A DNA stretch of 64,000 nucleotides from a candidate division WOR-3 bacterium (GTDB taxonomy: Bacteria > SDB-A): NCBI GenBank assembly GCA_016926475.1, contig JAFGON010000057.1, positions 8,411 to 72,410 on the forward strand. The letters run 5' to 3'. This document shows positions 1,319 to 53,995 of the stretch, one piece after another. Numbering within the stretch: position 1 is the stretch's first letter; each line of letters begins with the position of its first letter. The notes under the pieces are model-generated. The model was not told the origin of the DNA. It made no database searches and saw only the letters and a program-made list of their open reading frames with translations. The translations under genes and the position numbers were made by a program.

Positions 1319-1885
1319 ATGACAACGGGTATAGATCTAGTAGAAGAATTAGAAGACGACAGGATAATAGAAAAGGTTTTACAAGGAGACAGGGAGTGTT
1401 TCAGGGTTCTCGTCGAAAGATACCAAAAGAAAATATACGCGCAGATAAAGCGGAAGTATTACATCGATGATGACAATATGGATGACATAATGCAAGATAC
1501 GTTTATTAAATGCTACAAAAACCTGCACTCTTTCAAAATAGGTAAGGATTTCTATCCGTGGCTCTTAACCATCGCCTTAAATATCACAAAGGATTTCCTC
1601 AGAAAAATCATCACAAGTAAATCACGATTAAAAGAAACATACGAAGACCTCAAACACAAGCCGGAGAAAAGGGACAAAATATACGAAATAAGCGAACTCG
1701 ACAGTATCAGGGAGACTATCTCGGACCTTTCCCAAGATTACAAGGAAGTGTTGGTCCTCAGAGCAGAAGGTTTAAGCTATCAGGAAATATCGGAAAAAAT
1801 TTCGGTTCCCATAGGGACTGTGATGTCAAGGCTGAACAGAGCGAGGAAAGTCATACTTGAGAAATACTCTAAGAGGGACAGATGA
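1319..1885 (+). CDS. ECF-type RNA polymerase sigma factor
   Basis: 188-residue sigma-70-family factor of the extracytoplasmic-function type. Region 2 lies at about residues 25-95 (core-binding helix and FIKCYKNLHSF promoter-melting segment), and region 4 helix-turn-helix at about 130-180 (LSYQEISEKISVPIGTVMSRLNRARK). Regions 1 and 3 are absent, as expected for ECF. The ATG directly follows AAAAGG. It overlaps the downstream zinc-finger anti-sigma by four bases (ATGA), the standard sigma/anti-sigma operon layout, so it is probably held at the membrane until an envelope signal. A possible target promoter is at 3514-3541. Confidence 0.93.
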   Translation: MTTGIDLVEELEDDRIIEKVLQGDRECFRVLVERYQKKIYAQIKRKYYIDDDNMDDIMQDTFIKCYKNLHSFKIGKDFYPWLLTIALNITKDFLRKIITSKSRLKETYEDLKHKPEKRDKIYEISELDSIRETISDLSQDYKEVLVLRAEGLSYQEISEKISVPIGTVMSRLNRARKVILEKYSKRDR

Positions 1886-2934
1886 ATCACGACGAAATAA
1901 AAGATTTGATCGGCCCTTTCATCGACAAAGAATTGAATATTGAAGATTCATATAGAGTCAGAGAGCACCTCAAAGTATGCACTGAATGCCAGAAATATTA
2001 TGAGGAATTGAAATCTCTCGAAGGTAAAATTAAAAAGGTCGTCGAGAGCGAATCGATACCTTCGGACGCGTATTTTAAATCTCTTTCTTCCGCTGTCATG
2101 GCTCAGCTGCCAAGAAAAACCGAATCGAGATTTGGGGCTGTTCTTTCTTTTTTCTCAAGAAGAGAAATGAAAGCAGTGGGAGTTATGGGTTTTGTACTCG
2201 TCTTCGCGGTCTTGTTTCAACTTCTTTTTGTAGACAACTATCGAAAAATCCAGAGGCTAAACCAAACGATAACAGAAAAACCAGAGGAGATTCCTGCTTC
2301 TCCCTCCTCCTATTCTACCTCCCAGACGTTTGCAGGTGGATCGCCTGAAGAAAGATTTGCCATTTCTTCCCTTTCTACAGGAGATTCGATAAAAGATGTT
2401 CAGCAGGAAGGTTTAATCGAGCATTCTTCTGGCGAGATTCAAGTCGCCGATATTTCAACAACCGACAACCGCGATTACGATGAGTTAAACCTTGAAAAAT
2501 CAACTGTCGGTTTTTTTGGGGGCATACAGGACAGGGGTGAAATTCAGACCATCACCCTTGACGGCACCGAAGAAGAGCTTTCTCTGTCCCTCACTCGTTC
2601 GGTCCACGACAGCCAGGAAACAGGTTCGACTGACGCTACAATTGCCGGTTCTGCATTTTATCCGGCGGAAACTGCGGGTTGTGCCATTGTTTCAGAGGAA
2701 ATCTCTGAAACAGACGATTCTCTGTTGAAGGAATTTAAAACGCCGGTCAAGATCCGTTTTGACATCGACTCAGGAGGACTTATATACAGAATCCAGATGC
2801 CTGAAGACCTCGACACGGCGATCAAAAGTTATGTTCTAAACAAAAACTACCTTCGCCGTTCAAATTTTCACGATACAACAATAATCCTGGAGATTCCATC
2901 CGAAAAAATAATTGAATTTGATTTCAATTTTTAA
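1882..2934 (+). CDS. Membrane-anchored zinc-finger anti-sigma factor
   Basis: Cognate anti-sigma for the ECF factor just upstream. The N-terminal zf-HC2 domain shows H29-x3-C33-x2-C36 (HLKVCTEC), which in this family clamps the sigma factor in the cytoplasm. One transmembrane helix lies at about residues 97-117 (VGVMGFVLVFAVLFQLLFV). The remaining ~230 residues would be periplasmic: a Ser/Thr/Glu-rich low-complexity stretch, then a small folded C-terminal domain from about residue 285. The long disordered linker and C-terminal domain are not recognised; they could be the sensor. A terminator follows the stop. Confidence 0.88.
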   Translation: MNHDEIKDLIGPFIDKELNIEDSYRVREHLKVCTECQKYYEELKSLEGKIKKVVESESIPSDAYFKSLSSAVMAQLPRKTESRFGAVLSFFSRREMKAVGVMGFVLVFAVLFQLLFVDNYRKIQRLNQTITEKPEEIPASPSSYSTSQTFAGGSPEERFAISSLSTGDSIKDVQQEGLIEHSSGEIQVADISTTDNRDYDELNLEKSTVGFFGGIQDRGEIQTITLDGTEEELSLSLTRSVHDSQETGSTDATIAGSAFYPAETAGCAIVSEEISETDDSLLKEFKTPVKIRFDIDSGGLIYRIQMPEDLDTAIKSYVLNKNYLRRSNFHDTTIILEIPSEKIIEFDFNF

Positions 2935-2965
2935 AAAAAAACGGGCTGAAAATCAGCCCGTTTAG
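2933..2965. terminator. Bidirectional rho-independent terminator between convergent genes
   Basis: CGGGCTGA-AAA-TCAGCCCG forms an 8-bp GC-rich stem at about 2942-2960. It is flanked by an A-tract on the left and TTT on the right, so it can end transcription of the anti-sigma gene and, on the minus strand with its longer T-tract, of the Spy-like gene. Confidence 0.85.
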
Positions 2966-2969
2966 CAAC

Positions 2970-3494
2970 TTAACGGTCTTGAAAACGAGGAGGCCGCTGG
3001 TTGTTTCTCTCGTCGCGGTTTCCTGGCGAGGGAAGGAGCATTCTGGCAAAAAAACCTTCCGGCAATTTTTCAAGCTGTTCGTCAGTCAGTTCGGTTCTGA
3101 AAGAATAATACAAATCAACGCGGTCAAAGGCTATTTGCCTTTCGATATCCATGACCTGACCTACAAGAGTTTCTACCGTGTTCCGGCTTCCGTCTTCCTG
3201 GACTGTTTCTTTGATTTGGTCGAAGATTTCGCGCATTTTTTCGCGTGATTCTCTTGTCTTATTTCTGTTTTCTTCGAACAAGGACTTGATCCTATCTACC
3301 TGATCTTCAGACATTTCAAGTTCTTCGAAAATTCTTCCCATGAATCCAGGGCCGTTTTCCTGTTCTCTGAACTCCTGCCTCTCAGGTCTTCTTTCGTTTT
3401 CAAATCCGAATTGTTTTAGAGTTTCAAAAGCCCCGCCGAACGCGCTCTGAGAAATCAAAGCAAGAGCTATAAGAGTTGCTGTCACAAATTTCAT
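2970..3494 (-). CDS. Spy/CpxP-like periplasmic protein
   Basis: 174 residues with a Sec signal peptide (MKFVTATLIALALISQSAFG), so periplasmic. The mature part is charged and helical, with the repeated pattern ELEMSEDQVDRIKSLFEE and ELTDEQLEKL that resembles the paired LTxxQ motifs of the Spy/CpxP/zinc-resistance family, which act as ATP-independent chaperones or envelope-stress sensors. A strong AGGAGG precedes the ATG. It lies convergent to the ECF sigma/anti-sigma pair and has an ECF-like promoter (AAACTT-16-GTCTAA), so regulation by that sigma factor is an attractive inference. Family assignment rests on motif pattern only. Confidence 0.65.
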   Translation of the reverse strand: MKFVTATLIALALISQSAFGGAFETLKQFGFENERRPERQEFREQENGPGFMGRIFEELEMSEDQVDRIKSLFEENRNKTRESREKMREIFDQIKETVQEDGSRNTVETLVGQVMDIERQIAFDRVDLYYSFRTELTDEQLEKLPEGFFARMLLPSPGNRDERNNQRPPRFQDR

Positions 3495-3552: not shown

Positions 3553-3580
3553 TTGACTTACATTTTTGAATTGATATACT
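3553..3580 (+). promoter_or_regulatory. Sigma-70 promoter of tRNA-Lys
   Basis: TTGACT (3553-3558), 16-base spacer, TATACT (3575-3580). The predicted start (about 3587) lies a few bases before the mature tRNA 5' end. It is divergent from the ECF-like promoter of the Spy-like gene. Confidence 0.75.
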
Positions 3581-3591
3581 ATTTGTCTAAT

Positions 3592-3664
3592 GAGTCGCTA
3601 GCTCAGTCGGTAGAGCACCTGCCTTTTAAGCAGGGGGCCGTGGGTTCAAATCCCACGCGACTCA
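3592..3664 (+). tRNA. trnK: tRNA-Lys (anticodon UUU)
   Basis: A complete 73-base cloverleaf can be folded by hand: acceptor GAGTCGC/GCGACTC with discriminator A, D-stem GCTC/GAGC, anticodon stem CCTGC/GCAGG with loop CTTTTAA (anticodon TTT), variable loop GGGCC, and T-stem GTGGG/CCCAC with loop TTCAAAT. CCA is not encoded and must be added. The next coding start is only 24 bases downstream with no terminator between, so the tRNA and the following mRNA are probably one transcript separated by 3' processing. Confidence 0.97.
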
Positions 3665-3688
3665 ATTAATTAGGAGGAGAAAGAAAAA

Positions 3689-4219
3689 ATGAAATATGAT
3701 ATATTGAGAAAAATAACAATTTTTAAATATCTATCCGATTCAGAGATAGATGTTTTGGCAAACCAACTCACCGAAAAGAATTTCGACGAAGCCGAAGTCG
3801 TGGTTCAGGAAAAGAACAACGGTCACGAAATGTACATAATAATAGAGGGCGAAGCTCAAGTTCTCCTTCACAGGGAAGATACGCTTCTCGTTTTAGCCAA
3901 ACTTTCACCCGGAGGTTTTTTCGGAGACATGTCTTTGCTCACCGACCTGCCGAGAAGCGCCACGGTTAAAACTTTGACAAAATCCAAAATGCTCGTGTTT
4001 AAAAAGGAACTCCTTGAAGAAATTATGGAAAAATTCCCTTCTACAGCGGCAAAATTCCTGAAAGCCATATCGGAAGAACTCTGCGAAAGAATTCAAAGCA
4101 CCAACGAAAACGTCGAAACTCTTTTTCTGATAAACAAAGCAATTGTGGACAATGAGCAGTTCAGGAGGCTGTATATAGGCGCTCATAAACAAACGCCTTT
4201 TGGCTCATCTTCCTCTTGA
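3689..4219 (+). CDS. Cyclic-nucleotide-binding domain protein (no DNA-binding domain)
   Basis: 176 residues, almost entirely one cNMP-binding (CAP_ED) beta-roll. The phosphate-binding cassette region is seen as GGFFGDMSLLTDLPRSATVKT (about residues 72-92), where the E/D and R contact cyclic nucleotides in the family. The Crp-type helix-turn-helix is missing; the last ~50 residues are helical (ELCERIQSTNENVETL). It may therefore act through protein contacts rather than DNA. A strong AGGAGG lies ahead of the ATG. It sits directly behind tRNA-Lys and is coupled by TGATG to a beta-barrel gene. The ligand is unknown. Confidence 0.85.
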   Translation: MKYDILRKITIFKYLSDSEIDVLANQLTEKNFDEAEVVVQEKNNGHEMYIIIEGEAQVLLHREDTLLVLAKLSPGGFFGDMSLLTDLPRSATVKTLTKSKMLVFKKELLEEIMEKFPSTAAKFLKAISEELCERIQSTNENVETLFLINKAIVDNEQFRRLYIGAHKQTPFGSSSS

Positions 4220-5628
4220 TGTTTTTAATTCTCCTCGTCTTATCCCAATACACTTCTTTTCACCCTCACGCCGATTTTCTCAGCCCGGATATCGGGAAAA
4301 GATGGCGTATAGGAGTTAACGCGCTTTCTTTTTACAGCCAAAACGAAATCGACGATTCACTGGACTATTTTTTCTCAGGCGGCCTTCTTCTGGAATGGAA
4401 ATTGAGTTCGTTCGTCAAAACTTCTGGTGGAGCTTTCATTGAAAACGCTGATGAAAAGGAAGTTTCCCCTTTGTTTTATTTGACATTGGGAGGACCGGGA
4501 GGGGCTTTTATAGATCTCGGTGGAAACTTTTCTGCGTCAGACCGCCATGTTTCAGCGTCCGTTCTCGCCGACATTCAGAAAAACAGAGTATTAGGAATCA
4601 ATTCCTCGATAGGATACAACTGGAGAGATTCATCGTCTTTTCCGTTTATCTCCTCGAGGTTCTACTTCACAAAAAACTTCAACAAGACCTACTTTGAAAT
4701 TGAAAAACAGTTCCATGGAGGTGCTCCGTTTTTTTCTTACGAAAACACATGGGCAAAACTCGGCGTTCTCGCCGATTTTTTTGGAAATTTCTCCCTGGAA
4801 ATCCTCACTACCGTGCGGCTCGGCGCAAACTCACCTCCTGGAGTCCCGGACTGGACTCTCGGGGCAAAAATATTTTCAGGTTTATTTAGAGACCAGTCTT
4901 CAGTCAGAGGATCTGGTTCACTCGCCGGAAACGTGAGATCTCAAGAAGGACAGCCTGTGGCAAACGCCTCGATCATCATGTTCTCCGACTTCAGGGACCA
5001 GATTTCAAGCGACAGCTCTGGTTATTTTCAATTCTCCGAAATACCCTCGGGTTTCATCACAATAGATGTCGCGACAGAAGGTTTCAAGTCGGTCAGCATG
5101 CCTGTATCAATCAGGAAAAATCAAAATACATACTTAGAGATAATGCTGGAACCATCCTCTAAAAACGTCACTTACGATCTCTCAACTTTCGACTGCCTCA
5201 CGGGACAACCGGTGTTTTCGAGAATCAGAGGTTTTGACAATCTATTCACCGACACACTTCTTACAGTAGATGAAAACGAAACGCTGTTTATTGAAAGCGA
5301 AAATCGTGTTACAGCAGTCGTTGTCCCTCAAAAGAACCTCGTCGTCAAAGTGCCCATGATAAGCGAACAAACTCCTTTTATATTTGAAAAAACCGACTTC
5401 GAAGATTCGTCTCTTTCGTCATCCGGTATGATAAAATTAATGGATCTGAAATACATCCTCGAGTACTACCCTGAAATCATTCTCGCTTTCGAAGGTTCTG
5501 CGGATTTTTCGGAAACCGTGAGAAACTCGCTTTTTGCTTTTTTCTCTCTCAACAACCCCACGAAATTTAACCAAACTCAAGAAGACTCAATCCTAAAAAT
5601 CTACCTCCAGACATCAGGGCAAAGATAA
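4219..5628 (+). CDS. Predicted outer-membrane beta-barrel protein with carboxypeptidase-regulatory-like domain
   Basis: About 469 residues. A signal peptide (MFLILLVLSQYTSFHPHA) is followed by ~220 residues of alternating aromatic/polar strands typical of an outer-membrane barrel. A carboxypeptidase-regulatory-like beta-sandwich follows at about 235-315 (GNVRSQEGQPVANASI to GYFQFSEIPSGFITI), then an unrecognised ~150-residue tail. ATG at 4219 overlaps the stop of the upstream gene (TGATG); the TTG at 4216 is less likely. Such regulatory-like domains are common on surface and TonB-dependent proteins of Bacteroidota-like bacteria. The function is unknown; the neighbours suggest an envelope role. 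Confidence 0.6.
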   Translation: MFLILLVLSQYTSFHPHADFLSPDIGKRWRIGVNALSFYSQNEIDDSLDYFFSGGLLLEWKLSSFVKTSGGAFIENADEKEVSPLFYLTLGGPGGAFIDLGGNFSASDRHVSASVLADIQKNRVLGINSSIGYNWRDSSSFPFISSRFYFTKNFNKTYFEIEKQFHGGAPFFSYENTWAKLGVLADFFGNFSLEILTTVRLGANSPPGVPDWTLGAKIFSGLFRDQSSVRGSGSLAGNVRSQEGQPVANASIIMFSDFRDQISSDSSGYFQFSEIPSGFITIDVATEGFKSVSMPVSIRKNQNTYLEIMLEPSSKNVTYDLSTFDCLTGQPVFSRIRGFDNLFTDTLLTVDENETLFIESENRVTAVVVPQKNLVVKVPMISEQTPFIFEKTDFEDSSLSSSGMIKLMDLKYILEYYPEIILAFEGSADFSETVRNSLFAFFSLNNPTKFNQTQEDSILKIYLQTSGQR

Positions 5629-5691
5629 ACCGGAAAAAAACCGGCGGAACACCCTATATTTAAAAGCGTTTAAACAAAGTCAGAGATATTC

Positions 5692-5720
5692 TTGTATATT
5701 TTTTAACCTTGTGATATATA
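5692..5720 (+). promoter_or_regulatory. Candidate sigma-70 promoter for the receiver-PATAN operon
   Basis: TTGTAT (5692-5697), 17-base spacer, TATATA (5715-5720). It lies about 105 bases before the start at 5828 and so leaves a ~100-base leader. The leader ends in a T-rich stretch with no strong Shine-Dalgarno. Confidence 0.5.
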
Positions 5721-5827
5721 TTTAATTGTTAAAGCTCGTTGGTGTTTTAGAAACCCGCGAACAATCGAAGAGAGGGTCAGGATATTTTGAGTATTTTTTT
5801 TTCTGAGAAAACGGCGGTCTATTAGAA

Positions 5828-6901
5828 ATGAAAGGTTTTCCTTTCTCGGAGAAAAACAAACGGGTCATGGTTGTAGACGATGAACAAGATATCGCCAACA
5901 TCGTCGGAGAAAAATTATCTGAATCAGGTTTCGATATAACAACCGAATGGGACCCTCGGATAGCAATAAAAAAACTGTCCGAAACTTCTTACGACTTGGT
6001 AATAACAGACCTTAAAATGCCTCATTTGGATGGTTTCCAACTCATGGGTTGGATTAGAGACTACTCTCCCCTCACAAAAGTCGCAATGATAACTGCATAC
6101 GGCTCTCCTTACGCCCATAAAACCGCTGTTCAAAAAGGCGCTGTTTTTTACATCGAAAAACCTTTCGACCTCGATGATCTGGCTAAAAAAGTCGAAGAAA
6201 TACTCAAACCTCCACGTGAATTTGAGGCTAAAATTGAATCGATATCGTCGTTTGATTTAATCCAGATCATAGCTCTTACAGGCGGAAAGAGGAGGGTGTC
6301 TGTCTCTTCATCCGACAAGACCGGTGAAATGTACATAAAAAACGGAAAACTGGTATACGCCCACGCAGAAGGCAAATTCATGAAAGAAGCTTTCAACCGG
6401 ATGATCTTCTGGGATAGCGGCGTCTTTAACGTATTGAGCTGGCTTGAACCGCCGGAGGAAGGAGAATACCTCGACGTAAACCTGCTGTTGCTGGAAGCGA
6501 CGAAAATTTTAGATGAGAAAAAAGAAGGTATAAATCCATTAGACGATTTAGAACCTGAACCCATTCAAGAACAGAACAACAGGGACAAAAACTGCTATGA
6601 AAACATCAAAAAATCCCCAGATATCGAAGTTTACGCCAGGCTTGACAAAAACTGGAAAATGATAGAATCCAACAACGAAGCTGTAATCCAAAATACGGTG
6701 AAAGTGGCTTTTTTTCTCAATGAATGGGGAGATAGAGCACAGAAATCTCTATGCCTCGGAAGTCTTGAGGAAATTGTCCTTCACGTCTCTGGAAGAGAGC
6801 TTTGGATCAGAATTTGCTACAGAGAAAACCACATTTTTCTTTTAACTCAAAATAAAAGCCATAAAAATACACCTGGATACAACAATGGAATCGATTGCTG
6901 A
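5828..6901 (+). CDS. Response regulator: receiver-PATAN(DUF4388) with C-terminal extension
   Basis: 357 residues. The receiver domain (about 10-128) has VVDDE, phospho-acceptor D61 (LVITDLKMP), ITAYG and the EKPFD lysine loop, all intact. It is followed by a PATAN/DUF4388 domain at about 135-225 (SSFDLIQIIALTGGKRRV to GEMYIKNGKLVYAHAEG), a protein-interaction module often tied to two-component, GTPase and type IV pilus/gliding signalling. A linker and a C-terminal ~90 residues follow, perhaps roadblock-like. No DNA-binding output is present, so the output is presumably protein-protein. It overlaps the next gene by 17 bases. Confidence 0.88.
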   Translation: MKGFPFSEKNKRVMVVDDEQDIANIVGEKLSESGFDITTEWDPRIAIKKLSETSYDLVITDLKMPHLDGFQLMGWIRDYSPLTKVAMITAYGSPYAHKTAVQKGAVFYIEKPFDLDDLAKKVEEILKPPREFEAKIESISSFDLIQIIALTGGKRRVSVSSSDKTGEMYIKNGKLVYAHAEGKFMKEAFNRMIFWDSGVFNVLSWLEPPEEGEYLDVNLLLLEATKILDEKKEGINPLDDLEPEPIQEQNNRDKNCYENIKKSPDIEVYARLDKNWKMIESNNEAVIQNTVKVAFFLNEWGDRAQKSLCLGSLEEIVLHVSGRELWIRICYRENHIFLLTQNKSHKNTPGYNNGIDC

Positions 6902-7484
6902 TATTGAAAAATCACTTGGCCAGATTAAGAGTATAAAAGGTTTTTCAATATTCGATCTGACCGGAAAGCCCATCCATTCGAATTCCCCGATCAAAAACGG
7001 CTCTGATCTGGGGAGATCGATAGTAATCCTCTGTGACGCTCTTAAAAAACAAGAAGCGAAGAATGATTTGATAACCTGGAAATACTCAGACGGTATGATT
7101 TACCTAAAAGGCTTTCGAAACGGTTTTTTCATGGCAGTCACAAGCGAAAAATTCGAGGAGGATGCCACCATTAGATTAATTCACGATTCAGCAAAAAAAA
7201 TTGAATCATACATCACAAGTACCTCCGAAAAAAAACCCCCCGAATCTTTGTTGACAGAGAGTGAGCTTAATGAGATAGTCAGAAAGTTGAGAAAATGCGC
7301 GGTTGAAATTGAAGGACAATGGATCGGATGGTATTTCGACCAGCTCGTTCTGGATTTGATTGACATCGATCAAGCTGGAAAATACGATCTCAAGAATTTG
7401 ATCAAATATGTATCGGAACATTTAAGCGGCAGCGAAAAGAAAAAAACTTTCATAGAAAAAGCACTTAATATCATAGGAGAGTGA
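6885..7484 (+). CDS. Roadblock/LC7-like protein
   Basis: 199 residues. The first ~115 residues (helix, then GFSIFDLTGKPIHSN, then WKYSDGMIYLKGFRNGFFMAVTSE) follow the alternating pattern of roadblock/LC7 domains, which in bacteria regulate Ras-like MglA GTPases. The C-terminal half is helical and unrecognised. It starts within the end of the receiver-PATAN gene, and a PorV-like gene follows six bases after its stop, so the three are one operon. No MglA-type GTPase is present in the window. The assignment is a fold-level impression. Confidence 0.55.
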   Translation: MESIADIEKSLGQIKSIKGFSIFDLTGKPIHSNSPIKNGSDLGRSIVILCDALKKQEAKNDLITWKYSDGMIYLKGFRNGFFMAVTSEKFEEDATIRLIHDSAKKIESYITSTSEKKPPESLLTESELNEIVRKLRKCAVEIEGQWIGWYFDQLVLDLIDIDQAGKYDLKNLIKYVSEHLSGSEKKKTFIEKALNIIGE

Positions 7485-7490
7485 TAAAAA

Positions 7491-8438
7491 ATGAAGTTCA
7501 AAGGCATCTTGGCTTTTATAATACTGATTTTTATTTTCCAATCTTTACTTTTTGCGGGGATCACCGATTGGTATGAAAAGACTTTCGAGAAGGAAGAATC
7601 CGGTATCGGAATGGCTTTTTTAAAACTGCCCATATCTGCAAAACAAATTGCCATGGGCGGAGTAAGCACTTCTGTTTTTGAGGGAGAAGGAGGAATTTAC
7701 GGCAATCCCGCAACTTTACTGACAAAAGATCCTGAAAAGAAGATAGTATTTACGCATCAAAATCTTTTCCAGGGAATACACAATGAATTCGCCGGCATTC
7801 TCATTCCAGGAAAAAAAATGGCTATGGCATTTTCAACCAGCGGCCTTTTCATAGACGGTATAGAATACAGAACTGGTCCGGGAGAATCCGAGGGCGATTT
7901 CAGCGCGTACGATTTTTCTGCCTCCATGTCAGCGGCTTACAATCTTTACAGAGACATGTCAGTTGGAGTGAGGACCAAGATCATTCATGAAAGAATATTC
8001 GAGAGCACGACGACGGTATACGCTTTCGATTTCGGGGTTTTCTATTTTCCTTTTGAAAGGTTGAAGTTCGGAGCGACGATTGAGAATTTGGGTCCGAAGT
8101 ATTCCCTGAAAAAAGATTCCGAAACCCTTTCAAGACTCCCTACGTCTTGGAGAGTAGGCTTATCGGCGGATATGCCTTCTTTTTGGAATCTGCGTGAGAT
8201 AATAGCTGTTGACGCATGGAAATCTCCAGACGTCAGGATGAGATTTGACGTTGGAGCGCAGATAACTCACCCCAGCAGGTTTTCATTGAGATTAGGAGGA
8301 AAATTCAACTACGACAGTCAATCCTTTACCGCAGGTTTCGGTTACGTATGGAAGAGCATTTCGCTTGACTACGCTTTTGCGCCATACTCATCGGACCTCG
8401 GTCAGGCTCACGTCGTGACATTGACGCTTTCGATATAG
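7491..8438 (+). CDS. PorV/PorQ-family outer-membrane protein
   Basis: 315 residues with a signal peptide ending LLFAG. The start of the mature barrel has the family pattern: FLKLPISAKQIAMGGVSTS followed by GIYGNPATL, as in PorV/PorQ barrels. These are FadL-like outer-membrane proteins that shuttle or hold type IX secretion substrates. The rest is amphipathic beta-strands ending in a strand with a terminal hydrophobic residue. The window carries a protein with a type IX sorting domain (14657-16453), a plausible client. The location inside an operon with PATAN and roadblock regulators is unusual and suggests linked control. Confidence 0.75.
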   Translation: MKFKGILAFIILIFIFQSLLFAGITDWYEKTFEKEESGIGMAFLKLPISAKQIAMGGVSTSVFEGEGGIYGNPATLLTKDPEKKIVFTHQNLFQGIHNEFAGILIPGKKMAMAFSTSGLFIDGIEYRTGPGESEGDFSAYDFSASMSAAYNLYRDMSVGVRTKIIHERIFESTTTVYAFDFGVFYFPFERLKFGATIENLGPKYSLKKDSETLSRLPTSWRVGLSADMPSFWNLREIIAVDAWKSPDVRMRFDVGAQITHPSRFSLRLGGKFNYDSQSFTAGFGYVWKSISLDYAFAPYSSDLGQAHVVTLTLSI

Positions 8439-8451
8439 TAAAGGAGGTCAA

Positions 8452-9159
8452 ATGGCTGCTTTGAGCGGTAAACTCACGGATTTTGAAATACCCACTATTC
8501 TACAATTCATCAAAATGAGCAACAAAAACGGTATTTTAAAAATTTCCTCAGCCAAAACCAACGGAGAAATTCATTTCAAGGATTCTTCCATCGTCTACGC
8601 GATTGACGGAGACGAAAACAGCGGGGAAGTCGCTTTGTTCAACCTATTCCAGCTGAAAGACGGAGCTTTTGAATTTGTCCCTTCCGAAAACATTCTCAAC
8701 AGTCACTTCGACCTTCCAATAGATAACGCATACCAATCGCTCCAGTCGCAGTTAAAAGAATGGGAAGAAATTACCAGAGCGATACCTGACTTAAATCTGT
8801 CTGTTGGATTGATTTCAGATCCAGCGGTTAAAGAAGTAAAAATAACTCCGCCCCAATGGATCATAGCAGCTCAAGTCGACAACTTGAAAAGTCTTAAAGA
8901 CCTTTCCGCATCCACCGGTTTTTCACAGCTCGAAACAGCAAAAATAGTATATTCGCTTATTCAGAACGGGCTTGTAGAAGTTTCGAAAAAAACCGTAAAA
9001 GAAGATAGTTCCTCAGAAATTCCAAGAATGGAAGATCAAGTAGATGAAGATTTCGAAGAAGAAGATGACGAAGAAGCAAAACCCATTGGAAAAGAGACGG
9101 ATGAAGAAAGATCAAGAAGAATATCGAGAAGAAAACATAAAAAAGGATTTTTCAGATAA
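8452..9159 (+). CDS. PATAN/DUF4388 domain protein with charged tail
   Basis: 235 residues. The N-terminal PATAN/DUF4388 domain (about 1-100) shows LSGKLTDFEIPTILQFIKMS and GEIHFKDSSIVYAIDGD. A central region at about 130-180 resembles a small winged helix (LSASTGFSQLETAKIVYSLIQNGLVEV). The tail is first very acidic (EDFEEEDDEEA), then very basic (RRISRRKHKK). AGGAGG precedes the ATG, and it follows the PorV-like gene by 13 bases. It shares its PATAN domain with the response regulator at 5828, so the two may bind the same partner. The biochemical role is unknown. Confidence 0.8.
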   Translation: MAALSGKLTDFEIPTILQFIKMSNKNGILKISSAKTNGEIHFKDSSIVYAIDGDENSGEVALFNLFQLKDGAFEFVPSENILNSHFDLPIDNAYQSLQSQLKEWEEITRAIPDLNLSVGLISDPAVKEVKITPPQWIIAAQVDNLKSLKDLSASTGFSQLETAKIVYSLIQNGLVEVSKKTVKEDSSSEIPRMEDQVDEDFEEEDDEEAKPIGKETDEERSRRISRRKHKKGFFR

Positions 9160-9216: not shown

Positions 9217-10473
9217 ATGGCTGAAGTCAGACCTTTTAAAGCCCTTAGACCAATTTTGGATTTGGTAAATAAAATTGCCGCTCCGCCCTACGACGTGGTA
9301 TCCTCCAATGAAGCAAGAATTTTAGCCAAAGACGACAAATATTCCTTTCTTCACGTCACTAAACCCGAAATAGATCTAGACCCTTCGATAGACCTCTACG
9401 ATGAAAAGGTTTATATAAAAGGATCTGAAAACATGAAACTATTCATTGAAAATGGATGGCTTGTACAGGACAATACCCAGAACTATTATATATACAGACA
9501 GATCATGGGAACTCACAGCCAGGTGGGAATAGTCGCTTGCGCCAGCGCGGATGACTACGAATCAGATATTATAAAAAAACACGAATTTACGAGAAAAGAC
9601 AAAGAAGACGACAGGCTCAAACACATTCTTTCATTAAACGCCAACACCGGTCCTGTTTTTTTGACATACCGAGCAAAAAAGAAAATAGACGATTTCGTCG
9701 ACAGTTTCATAAAAAACAATTCTCCGGTTTATGATTTTAAGACCTCAGACGGAATATCTCACACTTTTTGGGTTGTTTCCGGAAAAGACGAAATCGAGTT
9801 TATGAAAAAAAGCTTCAATGAGATTGACGTCCTCTATGTGGCAGACGGGCACCACCGAAGCGCTTCAGCCGTCCGAGCGAGAGAAGTTTACAGTCAGAAA
9901 AATCCTAACCACACAGGCGAAGAAGAATACAACTTTTTTCTTTCGGTTATCTTTCCAGACGAGCAGATGAACATCATAGATTACAACAGGGTGGTCAAAG
10001 ACCTGAACTGCTACAGCAAGGATATGTTTTTGGTAAAAGTCGGTGAAATTTTCGAAGTGAACAAAATACAATGCTCTGACCCGGAAAATTGCAAACCTTC
10101 TGAAAAGCACAGGTTTTTGATGTATATTGACGGAGTGTTTTATTCTTTAAAAGCCAGAGAAAAATTGCTGAATTCCGAAGATACCCTGGAACTTCTCGAT
10201 GTGAATATACTCCAAAAAAATTTACTCGCCCCCATTCTCGGAATCCAGGACCCTCGTACAGACAAAAGAATTGATTTTATAGGCGGAATAAGAGGAATAA
10301 AGGAATTAAAAAATCTAGTCGACAGCGGGAAATTTCAAATCGCCTTTTCTCTCTACCCCGTCGGAATTGACGAATTGATCAAAATAGCCGACAGCGGAAA
10401 AACCATGCCGCCTAAATCAACTTGGTTTGAGCCAAAACTTCGGAGCGGACTCGCGGTACACATGCTGTCTTAA
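9217..10473 (+). CDS. DUF1015 family protein
   Basis: 418 residues matching the DUF1015 family over its whole length: N-terminal PFKALRP and APPYDVVS, and the central VADGHHRSASA motif. The family is widespread and conserved, but its reaction is not established. No signal peptide or membrane segment is seen, so it is cytosolic. It has its own ribosome site (AGGAG) 57 bases after the PATAN gene and may be read from the same transcript. It is convergent with the LpxH-like gene with almost no spacer and no clear terminator. Confidence 0.85.
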   Translation: MAEVRPFKALRPILDLVNKIAAPPYDVVSSNEARILAKDDKYSFLHVTKPEIDLDPSIDLYDEKVYIKGSENMKLFIENGWLVQDNTQNYYIYRQIMGTHSQVGIVACASADDYESDIIKKHEFTRKDKEDDRLKHILSLNANTGPVFLTYRAKKKIDDFVDSFIKNNSPVYDFKTSDGISHTFWVVSGKDEIEFMKKSFNEIDVLYVADGHHRSASAVRAREVYSQKNPNHTGEEEYNFFLSVIFPDEQMNIIDYNRVVKDLNCYSKDMFLVKVGEIFEVNKIQCSDPENCKPSEKHRFLMYIDGVFYSLKAREKLLNSEDTLELLDVNILQKNLLAPILGIQDPRTDKRIDFIGGIRGIKELKNLVDSGKFQIAFSLYPVGIDELIKIADSGKTMPPKSTWFEPKLRSGLAVHMLS

Positions 10474-14656: not shown

Positions 14657-16453
14657 ATGAAAATGCTGTGTGTTTTATTTTCTTTGGTATTGGCAGCATC
14701 CATGCTATTGGCAGTTCCAGCCGGACTCTCTGATGGAGTTGGATACACTCAGACAATCTATGAGTCTCCCTCTATCTCTCTTCCTCCCGACTTAAACGTA
14801 GAAAACGCGACATCTGAACTTGTGCAGGCAAAAGAATGCGGAGACTTAGAGAGAGCCAACGAACTTTCGCTTTTGATCAACGCTTGGTGGAAACAAAACA
14901 GGGTTCAGGAATTCGACCCTTCTGAGACAGGTTCTGCAGCGGAGAACACAAGGCTTACAACTGAAGAATTGGATGATCATATCAGCCCGACTTATTACGC
15001 GCCTTTATGGGGAACAGACGTCAGAATAGACCCTCGCGATGATTGCTACGGCGGCAACATAGTCTCTCTGAGCAACGGCGACCTCTACTCCATTTTTGTC
15101 TATTACTCATCCCCGAATTACTACAGAGTGACAAGAAGGTCAACAAACGGAGGGCAGACCTGGTCAACCTGCAACGAGATTAGCTTTACTAATGATATTA
15201 CTTACCCTCGGCTGAGCGTAGCCGACGACACCTTGGTAATGTCCTACGCAATGGAAAACTCCTCAAGCGAGTGGCAGCTCTGGGTCAAAACGACTTTACC
15301 TGGAGCTAGTTTGAATGACCTCACCTGGGGATCTCCCTCGAACGGATATACCAGCGACTACATCAGATATGCTGTCGTCACAAACGACGGACCAAACTAC
15401 AACTCCAAATGGATATACGCAACTTGGACACAGGGACACACGACCGGAACAGACCATACTTACATTAGATTCGCCCGTTCCAGCGATATGGACGTCTCTA
15501 CCTGGGAAATCAATGACACCCTCGGAAGCAGTTCGGGAGATAATATTTTCTACTACGGGACAGACATTGAAAACGGCGATGGGACAAGATTGGTCCTCGT
15601 AGTTGCCCTGCACCCGAGCGGCTGGCCTCAGTCTTTCGACGAGTATGTAAGGTCGTTAGCTTCTTCAAACGGAGGCTCCAGTTGGTCTTCGTTCGTCAAC
15701 ATTACCGACGGTCACAACAACCTCGACGAGAACCAGCCCTCCATTGCCGGTTCGCACGTCGACAGCACATGGTTCTGCATACTGAGGGTCGCAGACACTA
15801 CATATTCAACACAGCACCTCTACAACTATTACTCGATAAACCATGGCGCGGCCTGGACCGAAGACGCATGGGTCACGGCGTTTGATGACTGTTTCCTGCC
15901 TCACGTCTATATCGACTACAACACCTCCGATGTCTTTGCGGTTTTCAGGGTTGATAACGGATCATCAGAAGAAGTAAGGTACAAAGAAGGTAGAATATCA
16001 GCCCCGACTTTATGGTCGACTTCAGTCGTCATAAACGACAACACTAACGACCTCAGTTCTGTTTACGGGCCGAAAGTCTGTTTTGACTACGCAAGGACAA
16101 ACGCCTGTGTCATGTGGACGGACTACAGCTCGAACTACAGCGTTTGGTTCGACAGGACTGACGTGACAGGAGTCGAAGAAGAACCAGTGACCGGCGACAT
16201 CGAAGGGGAGGCTTTTGCAGTTTCCCAGACCGGAAAGAATTTCAGGATAACATACTCCGTTGCGTCAGCTCAAAACGTCTCCATAGACGTCTTCGACGTC
16301 ACCGGAAGAAATGTAGCCCAAGTATTCAACGGAACGAGACAGCCTGGGACATACACGGTTGACTTCACACCCGATTTCGCTCAGGGCTCGTATTTCTTCA
16401 CTTTGAGCACCCCGCAAGGAATTCAGACCCGCAGAGTTTTCCTGGCTGAATAG
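14657..16453 (+). CDS. Secreted beta-propeller (BNR/sialidase-like) protein with type IX sorting domain
   Basis: 598 residues: signal peptide (MKMLCVLFSLVLAASMLLAVPA), a ~90-residue helical pro-region, and a ~400-residue region with BNR/Asp-box motifs (STNGGQTW, SSNGGSSW) typical of sialidase-fold propellers. The C-terminal ~80-residue type IX (Por) sorting domain has IDVFDVTGRNV, PGTYTVDF and GSYFFTL. It is therefore exported and cleaved or anchored by a Por system. The propeller lacks an obvious set of sialidase catalytic residues, so binding rather than hydrolysis is possible. Strong AAGGAGG, a leader hairpin and a strong terminator suggest high expression. Confidence 0.82.
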   Translation: MKMLCVLFSLVLAASMLLAVPAGLSDGVGYTQTIYESPSISLPPDLNVENATSELVQAKECGDLERANELSLLINAWWKQNRVQEFDPSETGSAAENTRLTTEELDDHISPTYYAPLWGTDVRIDPRDDCYGGNIVSLSNGDLYSIFVYYSSPNYYRVTRRSTNGGQTWSTCNEISFTNDITYPRLSVADDTLVMSYAMENSSSEWQLWVKTTLPGASLNDLTWGSPSNGYTSDYIRYAVVTNDGPNYNSKWIYATWTQGHTTGTDHTYIRFARSSDMDVSTWEINDTLGSSSGDNIFYYGTDIENGDGTRLVLVVALHPSGWPQSFDEYVRSLASSNGGSSWSSFVNITDGHNNLDENQPSIAGSHVDSTWFCILRVADTTYSTQHLYNYYSINHGAAWTEDAWVTAFDDCFLPHVYIDYNTSDVFAVFRVDNGSSEEVRYKEGRISAPTLWSTSVVINDNTNDLSSVYGPKVCFDYARTNACVMWTDYSSNYSVWFDRTDVTGVEEEPVTGDIEGEAFAVSQTGKNFRITYSVASAQNVSIDVFDVTGRNVAQVFNGTRQPGTYTVDFTPDFAQGSYFFTLSTPQGIQTRRVFLAE

Positions 16454-47400: not shown

Positions 47401-47814
47401 TCATTGAAAAACTAAAATTGGTATTCCCAAACAGGAAAAGAGTCTTAATGTTTTCTTAATCTCCGTCTCCTCCGGTTCACATAAAACCAAAAGATCCGCC
47501 TTTGTTTTGCTTATTAGTGCGATTAAATCTTCATCGGTATCAATTTCCGCAACGCTCAAGTTTATAAACAATCCCTGTGATTTAAACTTCTCTTCAATTT
47601 CATAAGCTTCAAACCACCTTTTCCTTACCTGCTCCTCTTGAATTACCTCTCTTTTCCTGCCGTTTTGCTGAATTATATTTTCTATTAAATTTTTTTCGAT
47701 TACCGAAAAAACATAAGTTTCGGCTGAATTTAATTTCGAAAACCCAATCAGCCATTTTATTGTTTTTTGAGATAGTTTTTTTTCAAAGATTGTCACGATA
47801 ATTTTTGAAAACAT
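47401..47814 (-). CDS. UspA-like nucleotide-binding-fold protein
   Basis: About 137 residues starting at ATG 47814, one base overlapping the transporter stop (TGATG). The pattern FSKIIVTIFEKKLSQKTIKWLIGFSKLNSAETYVFSV at the N-terminus and ADLLVLCEPEE near the end follows the universal-stress-protein alpha/beta fold, although the G-x2-G-x9-G(S/T) ATP loop is not clear. The longer frame to 47901 overlaps the transporter and is not needed. A soluble regulator of the coupled transporter is the most natural guess. Confidence 0.6.
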   Translation of the reverse strand: MFSKIIVTIFEKKLSQKTIKWLIGFSKLNSAETYVFSVIEKNLIENIIQQNGRKREVIQEEQVRKRWFEAYEIEEKFKSQGLFINLSVAEIDTDEDLIALISKTKADLLVLCEPEETEIKKTLRLFSCLGIPILVFQ

Positions 47815-49784
47815 CAGGGCGACATCCCTATTTGCAAAATCATCAGAAATAACACTAAAATTATGGATATCAAAACAACGGGTAAACCAAATTTCAACCA
47901 AGAGCTGAAACTTATTATCTTGCCCTCGGATTTTTCATAAACTGATAAAGCGACCATGTTTGCGCTCGAGCCTATCATTGTCAGGTTTCCGCCTAAACAA
48001 CCACCAAAAAGCAAGCCCCACCACAATATTCCTGTATGTGACAATCCGATTATTTTCAAGCCTTTTACGACAGGAACAAGAGCCGCGATGATGGGAAGAT
48101 TATCCACAAAACCCGATGCCAGAGCCGTCGATGTAGTTATAATGACAAGTGCGGTCGCTGTGACAGTGTGTTCTGGATTTAACATACCTCCAATTTGAAT
48201 ATTTTGGGAAAAATTTGCGATTTGATACGCAAGTTTTGTCGTAACTCCTGTGTATTCTAAGCACGCGGCTTTTGCAAAAAGAAACATAAAAAACAATATT
48301 GTCCACCAGTCTACACCTTCGGTTATTAAATTTTTTCCTCGCCTTCCTTCCATGAACACAATAACTCCGGCAAATGCCAAAGGCATTGCGACGAGGGAGG
48401 TGTTAGGAAAAAGATTTAAAATTGCATCAACGCGTTTGGAAAAACCTATCAAGATAACTAATAAAATAAAAAGAAATCCACCAATTTTCATTTTCTTTAT
48501 ATTTTCTACACTTTCCCATGGATTGATGCTTTTGTTTTCATTCGAATTCGTATCCGTCTGAAAGGCTTTTATCTTAGCCGGTATGGATTTTCTGAACAAG
48601 AATAGTAAAAACAGGGACAAAACAACTGTTGTAATAATTGATAGAGGAGAGGCCCATCTTAAAAAGTCTTCAAATGACAGATTGCCTAAAAAAGCTATAT
48701 ATATACCTATGGGATTCCCGATTAAAGTCAGCGCTGAACCAATATTTGTGCCGAAGATAAGGCTGATAATGAAAGGGAATGCCGGTAAATTCATTTCGCT
48801 TGTCAACGATAAGGCAATTGAAGCTACAACCAATATACCTGTTACCTCGCCCGTCAACCCCCCCAAAATCACGGATAGAAACATGAGAATAAAAAAAATT
48901 TTTCTTGGATAAAACCCGACTTTTTTTATTATGAATGAAACTAAAAATTTAAAAACGCCTATATAATCAAGCCAGGCAACCACTATCATCATTGAAATAA
49001 TAAAAAGGATCGTCGGAATACTCATAAACTCCACTGTCATCTTCAAATCCATGGTGCCGCTCAACAAAAGAAAGCTCAATCCGAAGGCGGCAATTGCGAC
49101 CCTGTATTGCCAAAAAAGAAGAGTCCCGATGACCGTAGAAAAAAATATGCTTGAAGCCCAAATCTGCTTTGTAACCCATATAGACTCATTGAACTTTAAA
49201 TCGCCCCTTGCGAGTGCTTCGTCATTGAAAGGAATTTTAACCAGCGGAAGCATTACGACAAATAATATAAAAATAGCGGCGACTGCTCCGAAGAAATAGA
49301 AAAGACGCATGTTTTTTGTGAAAAAATTCTCTTTTGGCCTGGAGGAAATTATCGAAATCACCGACGCAGGGTCTTTAGCTTTCATCAGCTTTTTAAATGT
49401 CTCTTCACGATGTAAGACACTCGCAATCCCTGAAAGAATTTTCAGATACTCTTCCGGTTTTTTTTCAGGAGAAATAATCAACACAGCAAGCTTCACGAGT
49501 TGATCTTCTATTCCGTTAAACGGGATTCCCTGTTTTAATCTGGCTATGACAATATAACTTTTTTTAAGGTCGTGCAATCTGGCATGCGGCAGGGCAATGC
49601 CTTTGCCGATTGCAGTGGATCCTTTGTTTTCCCTGCTCGTCAGTTCTTCGATGAACTTATTTTTATCCTTGAGAATATTTTTCGAGTATAGAAATCCGGA
49701 GAAATAACGGAATAATTCCTCGCGAGTTTCTACTTCCAAATCGAGTATTACAAAATTTTTATTCAATACATCTTTAAATTTCAT
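47814..49784 (-). CDS. PTS EIIA-domain / NhaD-ArsB-type ion transporter fusion
   Basis: About 656 residues. Residues 1-145 form a PTS EIIA (PtsN/fructose-type) domain with the phospho-His in GKGIALPHARL. A ~500-residue polytopic domain of the IT superfamily (SLC13/ArsB/NhaD) follows, with two repeats: GLTGEVTGILVVASI and GTNIGSALTLIGNPIGIYI in the first, TALASGFVDNLPIIAALVP and GGNLTMIGSSANMVAL in the second. The latter pair matches Na+/H+ antiporter NhaD. Control by PTS-type phosphorylation is inferred. ATG 49784 is preferred; 17 residues upstream are not EIIA-like. A UspA-like gene is coupled downstream. Confidence 0.88.
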   Translation of the reverse strand: MKFKDVLNKNFVILDLEVETREELFRYFSGFLYSKNILKDKNKFIEELTSRENKGSTAIGKGIALPHARLHDLKKSYIVIARLKQGIPFNGIEDQLVKLAVLIISPEKKPEEYLKILSGIASVLHREETFKKLMKAKDPASVISIISSRPKENFFTKNMRLFYFFGAVAAIFILFVVMLPLVKIPFNDEALARGDLKFNESIWVTKQIWASSIFFSTVIGTLLFWQYRVAIAAFGLSFLLLSGTMDLKMTVEFMSIPTILFIISMMIVVAWLDYIGVFKFLVSFIIKKVGFYPRKIFFILMFLSVILGGLTGEVTGILVVASIALSLTSEMNLPAFPFIISLIFGTNIGSALTLIGNPIGIYIAFLGNLSFEDFLRWASPLSIITTVVLSLFLLFLFRKSIPAKIKAFQTDTNSNENKSINPWESVENIKKMKIGGFLFILLVILIGFSKRVDAILNLFPNTSLVAMPLAFAGVIVFMEGRRGKNLITEGVDWWTILFFMFLFAKAACLEYTGVTTKLAYQIANFSQNIQIGGMLNPEHTVTATALVIITTSTALASGFVDNLPIIAALVPVVKGLKIIGLSHTGILWWGLLFGGCLGGNLTMIGSSANMVALSVYEKSEGKIISFSSWLKFGLPVVLISIILVLFLMILQIGMSP

Positions 49785-50504
49785 CTTGATACAGTATATT
49801 ATTATTTTTTTAAAAGCAAGATCGTCGTCAATCAATTAGCTATGAACTCTCTCTATGTATTTTGTATCCTTCTCCGAAAGAAAATTCAGGAAACAATCAG
49901 ACATTTAACTTCCGCTAAATAATTTAAAGCAAAACTCGCATAATAGGATAAGAGACAAGATGTGTCAAAGTACCAGATTTTTCGAACGAAAAAACTGGCC
50001 AGATGTTTTTTTACAAAAAAGTATCATTATTATTATCGAGCAAAACGCCAATAAAATCAGGAAAGAGTATCTCTGATAGAGAAAATATGAACAATTTTAT
50101 AATAAAAATTATATCAGTAGAGAATTGGCTCAACATACTATTTTTGACACTTTGACCAGAGAAGTTGTTTACTTCTCTCATCCAGCCAGTCCACTGAATC
50201 GAGGGACCAATTAAAATACGAACGGTTTGATAAGACATTATTTTTCGAAAGGAACTGATTTTAACAATGTGACAAAAAAGAAATCAAAAACGCCCAACTG
50301 CGATGAATTATACTTCATTGGTTCTTAATGGCAGTCCTATAAAAGCGCTGGATTGGGATTGTCTTTGCAAGGCTTTTTAAAAATCGCGGGTTTTTCTTTA
50401 AAAACTTGAGACCACTAAAACAATATTTTTTGCAAATTGACAAATAAACTGGTTTAACGTCAATAATGGTTTATTTTATCAGACGCAGGAAGTTATAATA
50501 AACT
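49785..50504. other. Long noncoding stretch with hairpins and possible gene relics
   Basis: The only gene-free stretch of this length in the window. It holds: a hairpin at 49973-49998 (CCAG-A-TTTTTCG, AA, CGAAAAA-A-CTGG) followed by T7; a perfect 8-bp hairpin at 50158-50178 (AGAGAAGT/ACTTCTCT); a minus-strand fragment without start, about 50120-50250, reading SLDSVDWLDERSKQLLW in one frame; and a 25-codon plus-strand frame at 50303-50380 (LVLNGSPIKALDWD) resembling the N-terminus of HNH-type proteins. No ribosome sites. Probably decayed accessory DNA. Confidence 0.5.
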
Positions 50505-51316: not shown

Positions 51317-53995
51317 ATGAATTCATATTTTGAAGAGCAACCTGCTTACCAATATTTATCCGAAGATGATATAAAAAGAAAAATTGACGAACTCAACGAA
51401 GCTTCTTCAAAAACAGTCAGAGAAACCCCAAATGAATCCCTGGTCTTAGCGAACGACGCCCTTACGCTCTCGAAAGCCCATAACTATGAAAAAGGCTATA
51501 TAAAAGCTTTGGTCAACGCCGCTGTCTGTTATAAGGTCTTAGGCAGGCTGGAAGAAGCAGATCCTCTGTTCTCTCAAGCTCTTGAAAGGGCTCAGATTAC
51601 CGGAGACTTGAAATCTACAACTTATGTTTTAAACCAAATCGGTTTGTTGCAAAAATCAATGGGCAACTATACGGCTTCAGCCGACAGCTATTTCAAAGCT
51701 CTCGTCACGGCTGACAACATTCAAGACCACGAACTTTCAGATAAAATAATGAACAATCTTGCGAATTTATACATCGCATGGGGTGAATTCGAAAGAGCAG
51801 AAAGATACCACTTAAAACTTTTAAAAATCCGCGAAAACGATTATTCTCAGGACAAACTTTCCCACACTTTGAACAACCTCGGAAACTTATATTTCAAAAT
51901 GAAGGACTACGACAAAGCTCTTGACTTCACCCAAAGGTCGCTTGAAATCAAAAGAAAAATGGGAGACAAGCCGGGTATAGCCGTTTCTCTTTCCACTCTT
52001 GCGAACATCAACCTTGAGCTTTTTTCGATTACCGGCAAACAGAACTTCATCGAGCTGGCAAAAAATTATCTGACCGAAACCCTCAAAATTAGGAAAGAAT
52101 CGCAAAACATTTCCGGTCTCGCATTAACCCATTTAGACATGGCGAAACTTCATTTGGCCATGAAGCAGGAAAAAGGCGCTCTTTTGAATCTCGAAATATG
52201 CGAAAAAATCGCGTCTGAAGGCAACCTTCAAGGCATTTTGCTTATGGCGTATCAGGAATTTTCAATAATATACGAATCTATCGGAGATTTACCAAGAGCA
52301 CTTAAATTTTTCAAACTCTACCAAAAACTGAACAATAAAATATTTTCAGAAGAGAGCAGAGCGAAATTGCTGGATCTTCAGGCGAAATACGAACAGACTC
52401 GAATCGAAAAAGAAAATGAAATTTTACGTTTGAAAATCGAAGCAAAGGAAAATTTGGAAACACTGGTAAAACAGAGAACCGAAGAACTAAGGCAGGAGAT
52501 TGAGAGAAGGAAAATCTCAGAATCCGAAACGCTTAAGTTCAAAACGCTCACTGATAGAGCTCCTTACGGTGCGGTTATCACCGACAGTGAAGGCGTAATT
52601 TTGTATGTCAACGAAAGCCTGCTCCAAATGACCGGATTTTCTGAAGAAGAACTTGTCGGAAAAAACCTTTCCTGTTTTCAATCTCCAGAAACACCTTTAA
52701 AGCCTTTTGATATCATTTCAATTATTTCAAAAGAATCATCGATAAAAACCGCCGAGGTATCAGCCATAAGGAAGGACAAAACCACCTTCCCTGCTCTCAT
52801 CAATTCAGGGATCATCCGAGACGACAAGGGAGAAATCATCTATCTTCAGTCTTCCGTAATTGATATCACAGAGCGGAAGAAAGCCGAAATACAACTCAGG
52901 CAAAACATGAAAATGCTCGCTATCGGTAATATGGCAAGCGGTATAGCTCATGATTTCAACAACATTCTGGCTTCAATATGCAATTTCGCGGAGATCGCCA
53001 AAAGTGATCTCCCCCAAGAATCACACGCATTTCAGGAAATAAACAATATTCTCTCAACTGTTATGAAAGCCCGTGAATTTGTCAAAGAAATATTGTTCAT
53101 GGGTAAAGACGAAGAAAAAAAACTCAAACCCATAAAAATTGCCGAAGCTGTCAGGGAATCCGCAGAACTTCTAAAAAAGACCATTCCCAAAAGCATACAA
53201 ATCAAAATTGAAATTGAAAACACAAAAGACTTTATTTTAGGAGACCCCTCCCACGTGCACCAAATTCTTATGAACCTCATAACAAACTCATGCCACGCTA
53301 TGGCAGAAAGCGGAGGCGTCATCGAACTAACGCTGAAAAATCAAGATAACAAGATCAAACTTTCGGTTCGTGACACAGGCGAAGGAATAGAAAAAGCCGA
53401 TTTAGACAGAATTTTTGAACCTTATTTCACAACGAAAGGAGAAGGTTCCGGTATCGGCTTGGCAATAGTTCATGGTCTTGTAGAAAAATCAAACGGAGAA
53501 ATAAATGTTTTCAGCGAAAAAAACCAGGGGACTGCCTTCGAGATTTTATTTCCGAAAATTGAAATGGATTATACTGAAAACAGTAAGACGAATTCTTTAT
53601 CGCCAGCCCATAATGAAAGCATACTCTACGTTGACGACGAACCTATTTTTATCGAGACTATGGAAGAAATATTGAAAAGAATGGGATACAAAATCAAAAC
53701 AGCTTTGAATTCAAGCGAAGCTCTTGAAATATTTTACAAAAATCCGAATTCTTTTGACCTAGTGATAACCGATTTCAACTTACCTGAAATATCTGGACCT
53801 GACATGATTCAAAAAATGAGAGAGGTCAAACCGGACCTCCCTGTTATTTTTTGTTCAGGCTTTCTGACTTCGGACATCAAAAAACAGACAATCGACATTG
53901 ACAACGCGAAAGTGCTCACGAAACCAGTGCCCGTGGAAGAACTAACGGCGACTATCAGAGATTCATTTGCTAACAGAGGGCTTTCACAGTTTTAG
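51317..53995 (+). CDS. TPR-PAS hybrid histidine kinase with receiver
   Basis: 892 residues, no membrane helices. TPR array at about 25-350 (repeats of the type ALVNAAVCYKVLGRLEEADPL), coiled coil 355-405, PAS domain about 412-525, HisKA with the phospho-His in SGIAHDFNN (about residue 544), HATPase with NLITNSCHAMAE, DTGEGI and GEGSGIGLAIVHG, and a C-terminal receiver (YVDDE, phospho-Asp about 818 in VITDFNLPE, FCSGF, LTKPV). A cytosolic sensor whose input is a protein or ligand bound by TPR or PAS. No output domain; the partner may be elsewhere. Confidence 0.93.
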   Translation: MNSYFEEQPAYQYLSEDDIKRKIDELNEASSKTVRETPNESLVLANDALTLSKAHNYEKGYIKALVNAAVCYKVLGRLEEADPLFSQALERAQITGDLKSTTYVLNQIGLLQKSMGNYTASADSYFKALVTADNIQDHELSDKIMNNLANLYIAWGEFERAERYHLKLLKIRENDYSQDKLSHTLNNLGNLYFKMKDYDKALDFTQRSLEIKRKMGDKPGIAVSLSTLANINLELFSITGKQNFIELAKNYLTETLKIRKESQNISGLALTHLDMAKLHLAMKQEKGALLNLEICEKIASEGNLQGILLMAYQEFSIIYESIGDLPRALKFFKLYQKLNNKIFSEESRAKLLDLQAKYEQTRIEKENEILRLKIEAKENLETLVKQRTEELRQEIERRKISESETLKFKTLTDRAPYGAVITDSEGVILYVNESLLQMTGFSEEELVGKNLSCFQSPETPLKPFDIISIISKESSIKTAEVSAIRKDKTTFPALINSGIIRDDKGEIIYLQSSVIDITERKKAEIQLRQNMKMLAIGNMASGIAHDFNNILASICNFAEIAKSDLPQESHAFQEINNILSTVMKAREFVKEILFMGKDEEKKLKPIKIAEAVRESAELLKKTIPKSIQIKIEIENTKDFILGDPSHVHQILMNLITNSCHAMAESGGVIELTLKNQDNKIKLSVRDTGEGIEKADLDRIFEPYFTTKGEGSGIGLAIVHGLVEKSNGEINVFSEKNQGTAFEILFPKIEMDYTENSKTNSLSPAHNESILYVDDEPIFIETMEEILKRMGYKIKTALNSSEALEIFYKNPNSFDLVITDFNLPEISGPDMIQKMREVKPDLPVIFCSGFLTSDIKKQTIDIDNAKVLTKPVPVEELTATIRDSFANRGLSQF

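Follow-up and report, generated by a model that had tools for sequence, protein, structure and literature searches.

A conserved block of signalling-adaptor and outer-membrane barrel genes in a WOR-3-labelled lineage, with a histidine kinase gene probably lost in one species

In a 64,000-nucleotide stretch of DNA from a candidate division WOR-3 bacterium (contig JAFGON010000057.1; the whole stretch is called the window), we have identified a conserved block of genes that combines known parts in a new way, encoding signalling adaptors together with outer-membrane barrels. The order of the genes, which encode a cyclic nucleotide monophosphate (cNMP)-binding protein, a first barrel, a receiver-PATAN protein, a roadblock protein, a PorV/PorQ-family barrel, a second PATAN protein and a DUF1015 protein, is kept in all three relatives (G001, G002 and G003) of the window genome (G000, 2.15 Mb) among the genomes searched; two of these relatives share the genus of the window species and the third belongs to another. 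Because the order persists in all three at 28-87% identity between the block proteins of the window genome and those of the relatives, it is not due to chance, and the conservation of gene order that a first-pass annotation of this DNA had named as its check is thus borne out, even in another genus. In that genus synteny ends right after the DUF1015 gene with the module intact, and within the genus synteny extends to flanking genes too, hflX and SLT among them. The first-pass annotation had counted five tightly packed gene products; the open reading frame (ORF) listing of the window instead gives six real genes, all on the + strand, and tight packing is found at four junctions (a TGATG overlap at 4217-4221, a 17-bp overlap, a 6-bp gap and a 13-bp gap) but not between the first barrel gene and the receiver-PATAN gene, which lie 199 bp apart. 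A roadblock-profile search of 386 genomes gave matches confined to this family, bar one weak match (E 2e-4, 64 residues), a scan of viral contigs with the PorV-like protein gave no match, and PHROGs returned only receiver-like families of unknown function. The same block is present in LKUE01000308.1, a record named Desulfuromonas sp. SDB that falls in the same family as a WOR-3-labelled genome with this block, and the public name of this record looks wrong.

Another finding from this study is a seventh gene, placed in all three relatives between those for the first barrel and the receiver protein, which encodes a histidine kinase of 346-369 amino acids (HisKA 26-33 bits, HATPase_c 78-81 bits) whose N-terminus is DUF4388-like in one of the three (E 6e-4). 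The corresponding position in the window is the AT-rich 199-bp gap (5629..5827, no strand, 34% GC), in which we found no relic of the kinase and stops in all three forward frames. Neither was a kinase orthologue found in the window genome, which is 100% complete by estimate, and relocation of the gene within it was rejected, as the best matches reach at most 31% identity over the kinase core only. Tajima relative-rate tests were carried out with G003 as the outgroup on about twelve regions. The results reveal that the roadblock protein has evolved faster in the window lineage (38 vs 8 changes, p 9e-6; 40 vs 11, p 6e-5), and so has the receiver domain (19 vs 5, p 0.007; 21 vs 6, p 0.006), for which the relative-rate p-values alone would fail a strict multiple-test correction. 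The receiver and the roadblock protein also stand out, with p 7e-6 and p 3e-4, respectively, in a count of unique changes that takes the other genes as the baseline. No significant excess in the window lineage appears in the relative-rate tests of the cNMP protein, the first barrel, the PATAN part of the receiver protein, the PorV/PorQ-family barrel, the second PATAN protein or the DUF1015 protein. Since only these two products sped up after the kinase loss, the receiver domain and the roadblock protein appear to be the partners of the kinase, and the simplest reading is that the three form one unit that has been rewired or relaxed in the window species. The gap may reflect an assembly error in the window genome, but the changed evolution of the receiver and the roadblock protein fits a real loss. 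The kinase that the window species itself lacks is the likely cognate kinase of the receiver, on which the idea of control by phosphorylation centres. Two hybrid histidine kinases of the TPR-PAS and PAS types, encoded at window positions 51317-53995 and 61347-63833, are candidate drivers of the orphaned receiver.

Most of the domain calls of the first-pass annotation hold for the signalling proteins. The cNMP-binding protein (3689..4219, +, 176 amino acids) has a Pfam cNMP_binding domain at 65 bits and no helix-turn-helix, in agreement with the earlier description of a domain of this kind without a DNA-binding partner; its phosphate-binding cassette, GGFFGDMSLLTDLPRSA, is intact and its C-terminal tail, ENVETLFLINKAIVDNEQFRRLYIGAHKQ, is invariant across genera. 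The receiver-PATAN protein (5828..6901, +, 357 amino acids, assigned from Pfam and predicted structure) matches Response_reg at 86 bits over residues 13-122 with an invariant phosphorylation set (D17/D18, the phospho-acceptor D61, T89 and K111), followed by PATAN/DUF4388 at residues 135-232. Together with the second PATAN protein (8452..9159, +, 235 amino acids) it confirms both PATAN calls, with Pfam DUF4388 scores of 43 and 58 bits against a gathering score of 25. The second PATAN protein has a helical middle, possibly winged-helix-like, and an invariant basic C-terminal tail, KKGFFR. The same genome has a second PATAN locus (L017:4218-10186), where a PATAN protein gene is followed by genes for two proteins without a Pfam match, the first of which reads like a roadblock protein, then a small membrane protein and a TonB-dependent receptor with CarboxypepD_reg.

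The roadblock call for the 199-residue protein (6885..7484, +) is supported by predicted structure, the kind of check that had been named beforehand, and sequence profiles are blind to it. With this support and the conserved gene order, neither of the outcomes that the first-pass annotation had named as refuting has come about. The protein has no Pfam or NCBIfam match, and the Robl_LC7 profile misses it and its three orthologues and does detect the MglB encoded elsewhere in the genome; it has been recognized that the Robl_LC7 model misses some family members (PMC4316618). An AlphaFold2 model built from three sequences (predicted local distance difference test, pLDDT, 77; predicted template modelling score, pTM, 0.52) shows a roadblock fold at about residues 1-114, with the DSSP order alpha-beta-beta-alpha-beta-beta-beta-alpha that matches this fold, and then a four-helix C-terminal domain at 125-196. 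Nearly all of the 50 best Foldseek matches in the PDB are roadblock, LC7, MglB or Ragulator folds, with E down to 1e-5, the best being Asgard roadblocks, MglB, dynein LC7 and Ragulator chains. The C-terminal 90 residues of the receiver protein (about 250-340) also take the roadblock order of helices and strands in the model, and almost every PDB match of this protein is a roadblock (E 0.002-0.02), so that the receiver-PATAN protein carries a probable second roadblock domain. Elsewhere in genomes of this family (L054:1456-1857 and L053:1402-1794), a small roadblock-like protein of about 130 amino acids with only a weak Robl_LC7 match is encoded next to a large secreted-protein-like gene.

The two barrels differ in how far they can be assigned. 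The first (4219..5628, +) has beta-barrel-like hydrophobic alternation at residues 20-225 (z 2.5-5.0 in three homologues, with cytosolic controls at about 0), from which its N-terminal half is predicted to be an outer-membrane barrel, and a CarboxypepD_reg domain at residues 235-311. Its tail aligns weakly but in order with the barrel-CRD-OmpA protein of the same genome (E 3e-4); a firm OmpA domain was rejected, since PF00691 finds no match, and a degenerate resemblance remains. The likely start of this gene is the ATG at 4219 within the TGATG overlap, and the ORF listing gives a TTG at 4216. The second barrel (7491..8438, +, 315 amino acids) belongs to the PorV/PorQ family by NF033709 (120 bits, cut-off 90), and the sole PDB match of its profile is the PorV of Flavobacterium johnsoniae (6h3i chain F, E 6.6e-6). 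However, it falls below the equivalog cut-offs for PorV (NF033710, 29.7 bits vs 250), PorQ (NF033711, 79.8 bits vs 220) and PorV2, and among the 6-7 paralogues of each genome its gene makes up a separate orthologue group. The earlier description of a type IX-type barrel is thus upheld at the level of the family only, and the claim that signalling adaptors are coupled to such a barrel in one operon stands as regards the conserved module and is limited in the same way as regards the barrel.

Other loci of these genomes provide the machinery on which such a module might act. A gene for an MglB-like roadblock protein followed by one for an MglA-like GTPase adjoins recR in all four genomes, so that the GTPase for which a search had been proposed is present, at a locus separate from the block, and PilB/PilT-type ATPases of type IV pili are also found in all four. 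The Sov/SprA equivalog TIGR04189 scores 427 bits in the window genome and reaches up to 462 bits, against a cut-off of 200, which by sequence marks a genuine translocon gene, and type IX sorting-tail matches number 44 in the window genome and 53, 36 and 87 in the other three; type IX components are therefore present as well. At window positions 14657-16453 a BNR-like repeat protein has a C-terminus that resembles a type IX sorting tail at 18.8 bits (cut-off 27). A gene for a class III cyclase-AAA-TPR protein lies 6 bp downstream of sov in the window genome, and G001 and G003 have this arrangement too, flanked by the same genes; in G002, sov and the cyclase gene fall on different contigs. This adjacency links type IX secretion to cyclic nucleotides independently of the block. 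The locus (L104:4282-13095; also L105, L106 and in part L107), which has a NapH-like ferredoxin gene upstream, is conserved in this family, outside Bacteroidota. Cyclase matches number 27, 22, 23 and 31 in the four genomes, with several per protein in places, and G000 encodes about twenty class III cyclase-type proteins in 2.1 Mb, many of 1,100-1,400 amino acids and several with two matches.

Taken together, these data suggest that the operon controls protein export or surface movement in these cells. We tentatively favour, at somewhat less than an even chance, the view that its products form a cytoplasmic two-component and roadblock adaptor complex through which phosphorylation and a cyclic nucleotide act on cell-surface machinery and tune it, probably via MglA. 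Ancestrally, the receiver of the receiver-PATAN-roadblock protein would be phosphorylated by a soluble PATAN-like histidine kinase. The fusion protein would use its roadblock domain to pair with the roadblock protein, with which it is co-translated, and this pair, like MglB or MglB/MglC, would bind a Ras-like GTPase, most likely the MglA of the genome. Input from a second messenger would come in through the small cNMP protein, and the second PATAN protein would offer a site for binding a partner. The outputs would be type IV pili and/or type IX-dependent export, with the PorV/PorQ-family barrel and the barrel-CRD-OmpA-like protein as parts of the latter. For the window species, it is probable that the receiver either answers to a different kinase or works unphosphorylated. 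We infer every protein-protein contact, the binding of the GTPase and of the cyclic nucleotide, and the output. It has been reported that the pilus motor PilB1 is a target of PATAN response regulators (PMC7690835), that PATAN genes occur near mglA and mglB (PMC4316618) and that the phosphorylated receiver of PorX binds the type IX motor protein PorL/GldL (PMC10951265), which is why an adaptor acting on pili or type IX export appears reasonable. Likewise, control of secretion or motility by second messenger and phosphorylation, as the first-pass annotation proposed, is made plausible by the conserved module, the sov-adjacent cyclase, the sorting tails, MglA-MglB and the pilus ATPases, although the action itself would follow by inference only.

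Several points weigh against this adaptor complex. The GTPase is absent from the operon: no GTPase gene is found between 3689 and 10473, or in the blocks of the relatives. The 315-residue barrel is one of several PorV/PorQ paralogues and meets no equivalog cut-off, so that its assignment to type IX holds only at family level, and the DUF1015 product in the block looks metabolic. The model of the receiver-PATAN-roadblock protein has low confidence (mean pLDDT 49), and profile-profile comparison of the roadblock protein and the receiver C-terminus with the MglB of the genome gave no signal with shallow alignments, for which reason structure was used for the roadblock call. The conservation itself rests on four species in a short tree. 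A more specific form, in which a roadblock scaffold gated by phosphorylation and cyclic nucleotide switches type IX surface export via an MglA-type GTPase in a non-Bacteroidota lineage, is doubtful; if true, it would connect type IX secretion with Ras-like GTPase polarity in a way not described before.

It is also possible, though we consider it unlikely, that the module controls type IV pili or twitching polarity and that the barrels are passengers or help the envelope to carry pili. The pilus ATPases and MglA/MglB in these genomes, the binding of PixE to PilB1 (PMC7690835) and the occurrence of PATAN genes near mglA (PMC4316618) are consistent with this possibility; however, the block has no pilus gene and keeps a dedicated PorV/PorQ-family orthologue inside it in all four species. 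Improbable in our view is a role in outer-membrane or envelope homeostasis, with the barrels regulated and the adaptors sensing the state of the envelope: in both the window and G003 the block has a Spy/CpxP/LTXXQ-like gene as its neighbour, an extracytoplasmic function (ECF) sigma factor gene with a zinc-finger anti-sigma gene lies at 1319-2934 and the first barrel has an OmpA-like tail, but the ECF pair is unmatched at the G003 locus, the block has no evident sensor that spans the membrane, and the roadblock domains point to a GTPase. Equally improbable is that the genes between tRNA-Lys and DUF1015 are co-transcribed and kept together for convenience of expression without a shared function, as the syntenic flanks within the genus and a DUF1015 gene with no evident link might suggest, because in the other genus synteny is lost right after DUF1015 with the module whole, genes overlap, and only the receiver and its neighbouring roadblock protein accelerated after the kinase loss.

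The adaptor complex that we favour resembles several known systems in part. Like MglA/MglB/RomR-RomX of Myxococcus, it has roadblock protein(s), a receiver protein and a Ras-like GTPase, with MglA and MglB in the same genome, but here the GTPase and MglB are encoded at another locus, the receiver, PATAN and probably roadblock domains are fused, and barrels are linked. The Streptomyces conservon (cvnA-D, encoding a kinase, an MglB homologue, an unknown protein and a GTPase; PMC4316618) also has a kinase and a roadblock protein in one operon, as in the relatives, whereas the operon here lacks the GTPase and adds PATAN, receiver, cNMP and barrel genes. The PATAN-CheY proteins PixG, PixE and LsiR of cyanobacterial phototaxis (PMC7690835) have receiver and PATAN on one protein and act on a surface machine, an action that is hypothesised here; the block differs in its probable roadblock domain and adjoining barrels and is without chemotaxis-like or photoreceptor genes. 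Type IX secretion has been described as Bacteroidetes-specific and PorXY-SigP-controlled (PMC10951265 among the sources), and with PorX/PorY-SigP the block has in common a receiver without a DNA-binding domain and, hypothetically, two-component control of type IX; in contrast, the effector of PorX is PglZ rather than PATAN/roadblock, and that system has no cNMP gene. The 315-residue barrel shares its family with PorV/PorQ (NF033709; 6h3i chain F) but is encoded with signalling genes and stays below the equivalog cut-offs. A WOR-3-labelled lineage that has a Sov gene beside a class III cyclase, and separately a conserved operon of adaptors and a PorV/PorQ-family barrel, gives a definite setting in which to look for a coupling of type IX export to Ras-like GTPase polarity, and the natural loss of a kinase with faster change in just two products offers a way to map protein partners.

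With regard to the surroundings of the block, a tRNA-Lys(TTT) gene (3591..3665, +) lies just 5' of it, with a sigma-70-like promoter match at 3553-3580, 5' of the tRNA gene. The tRNA-Lys gene also precedes the block in G001 and G003, and the G002 contig starts just 5' of the cNMP gene. The block, as far as the other genus shares it, ends with the DUF1015 gene (9217..10473, +). The ECF sigma and anti-sigma genes are just upstream of the block, as is the divergent Spy/CpxP-like (LTXXQ-like) gene in the 1319-3494 region, and in G003 only the Spy-like gene adjoins it. Farther along the window, a single ORF (47814-49835, -) fuses a phosphotransferase system (PTS) EIIA domain to a CitMHS-type transporter.

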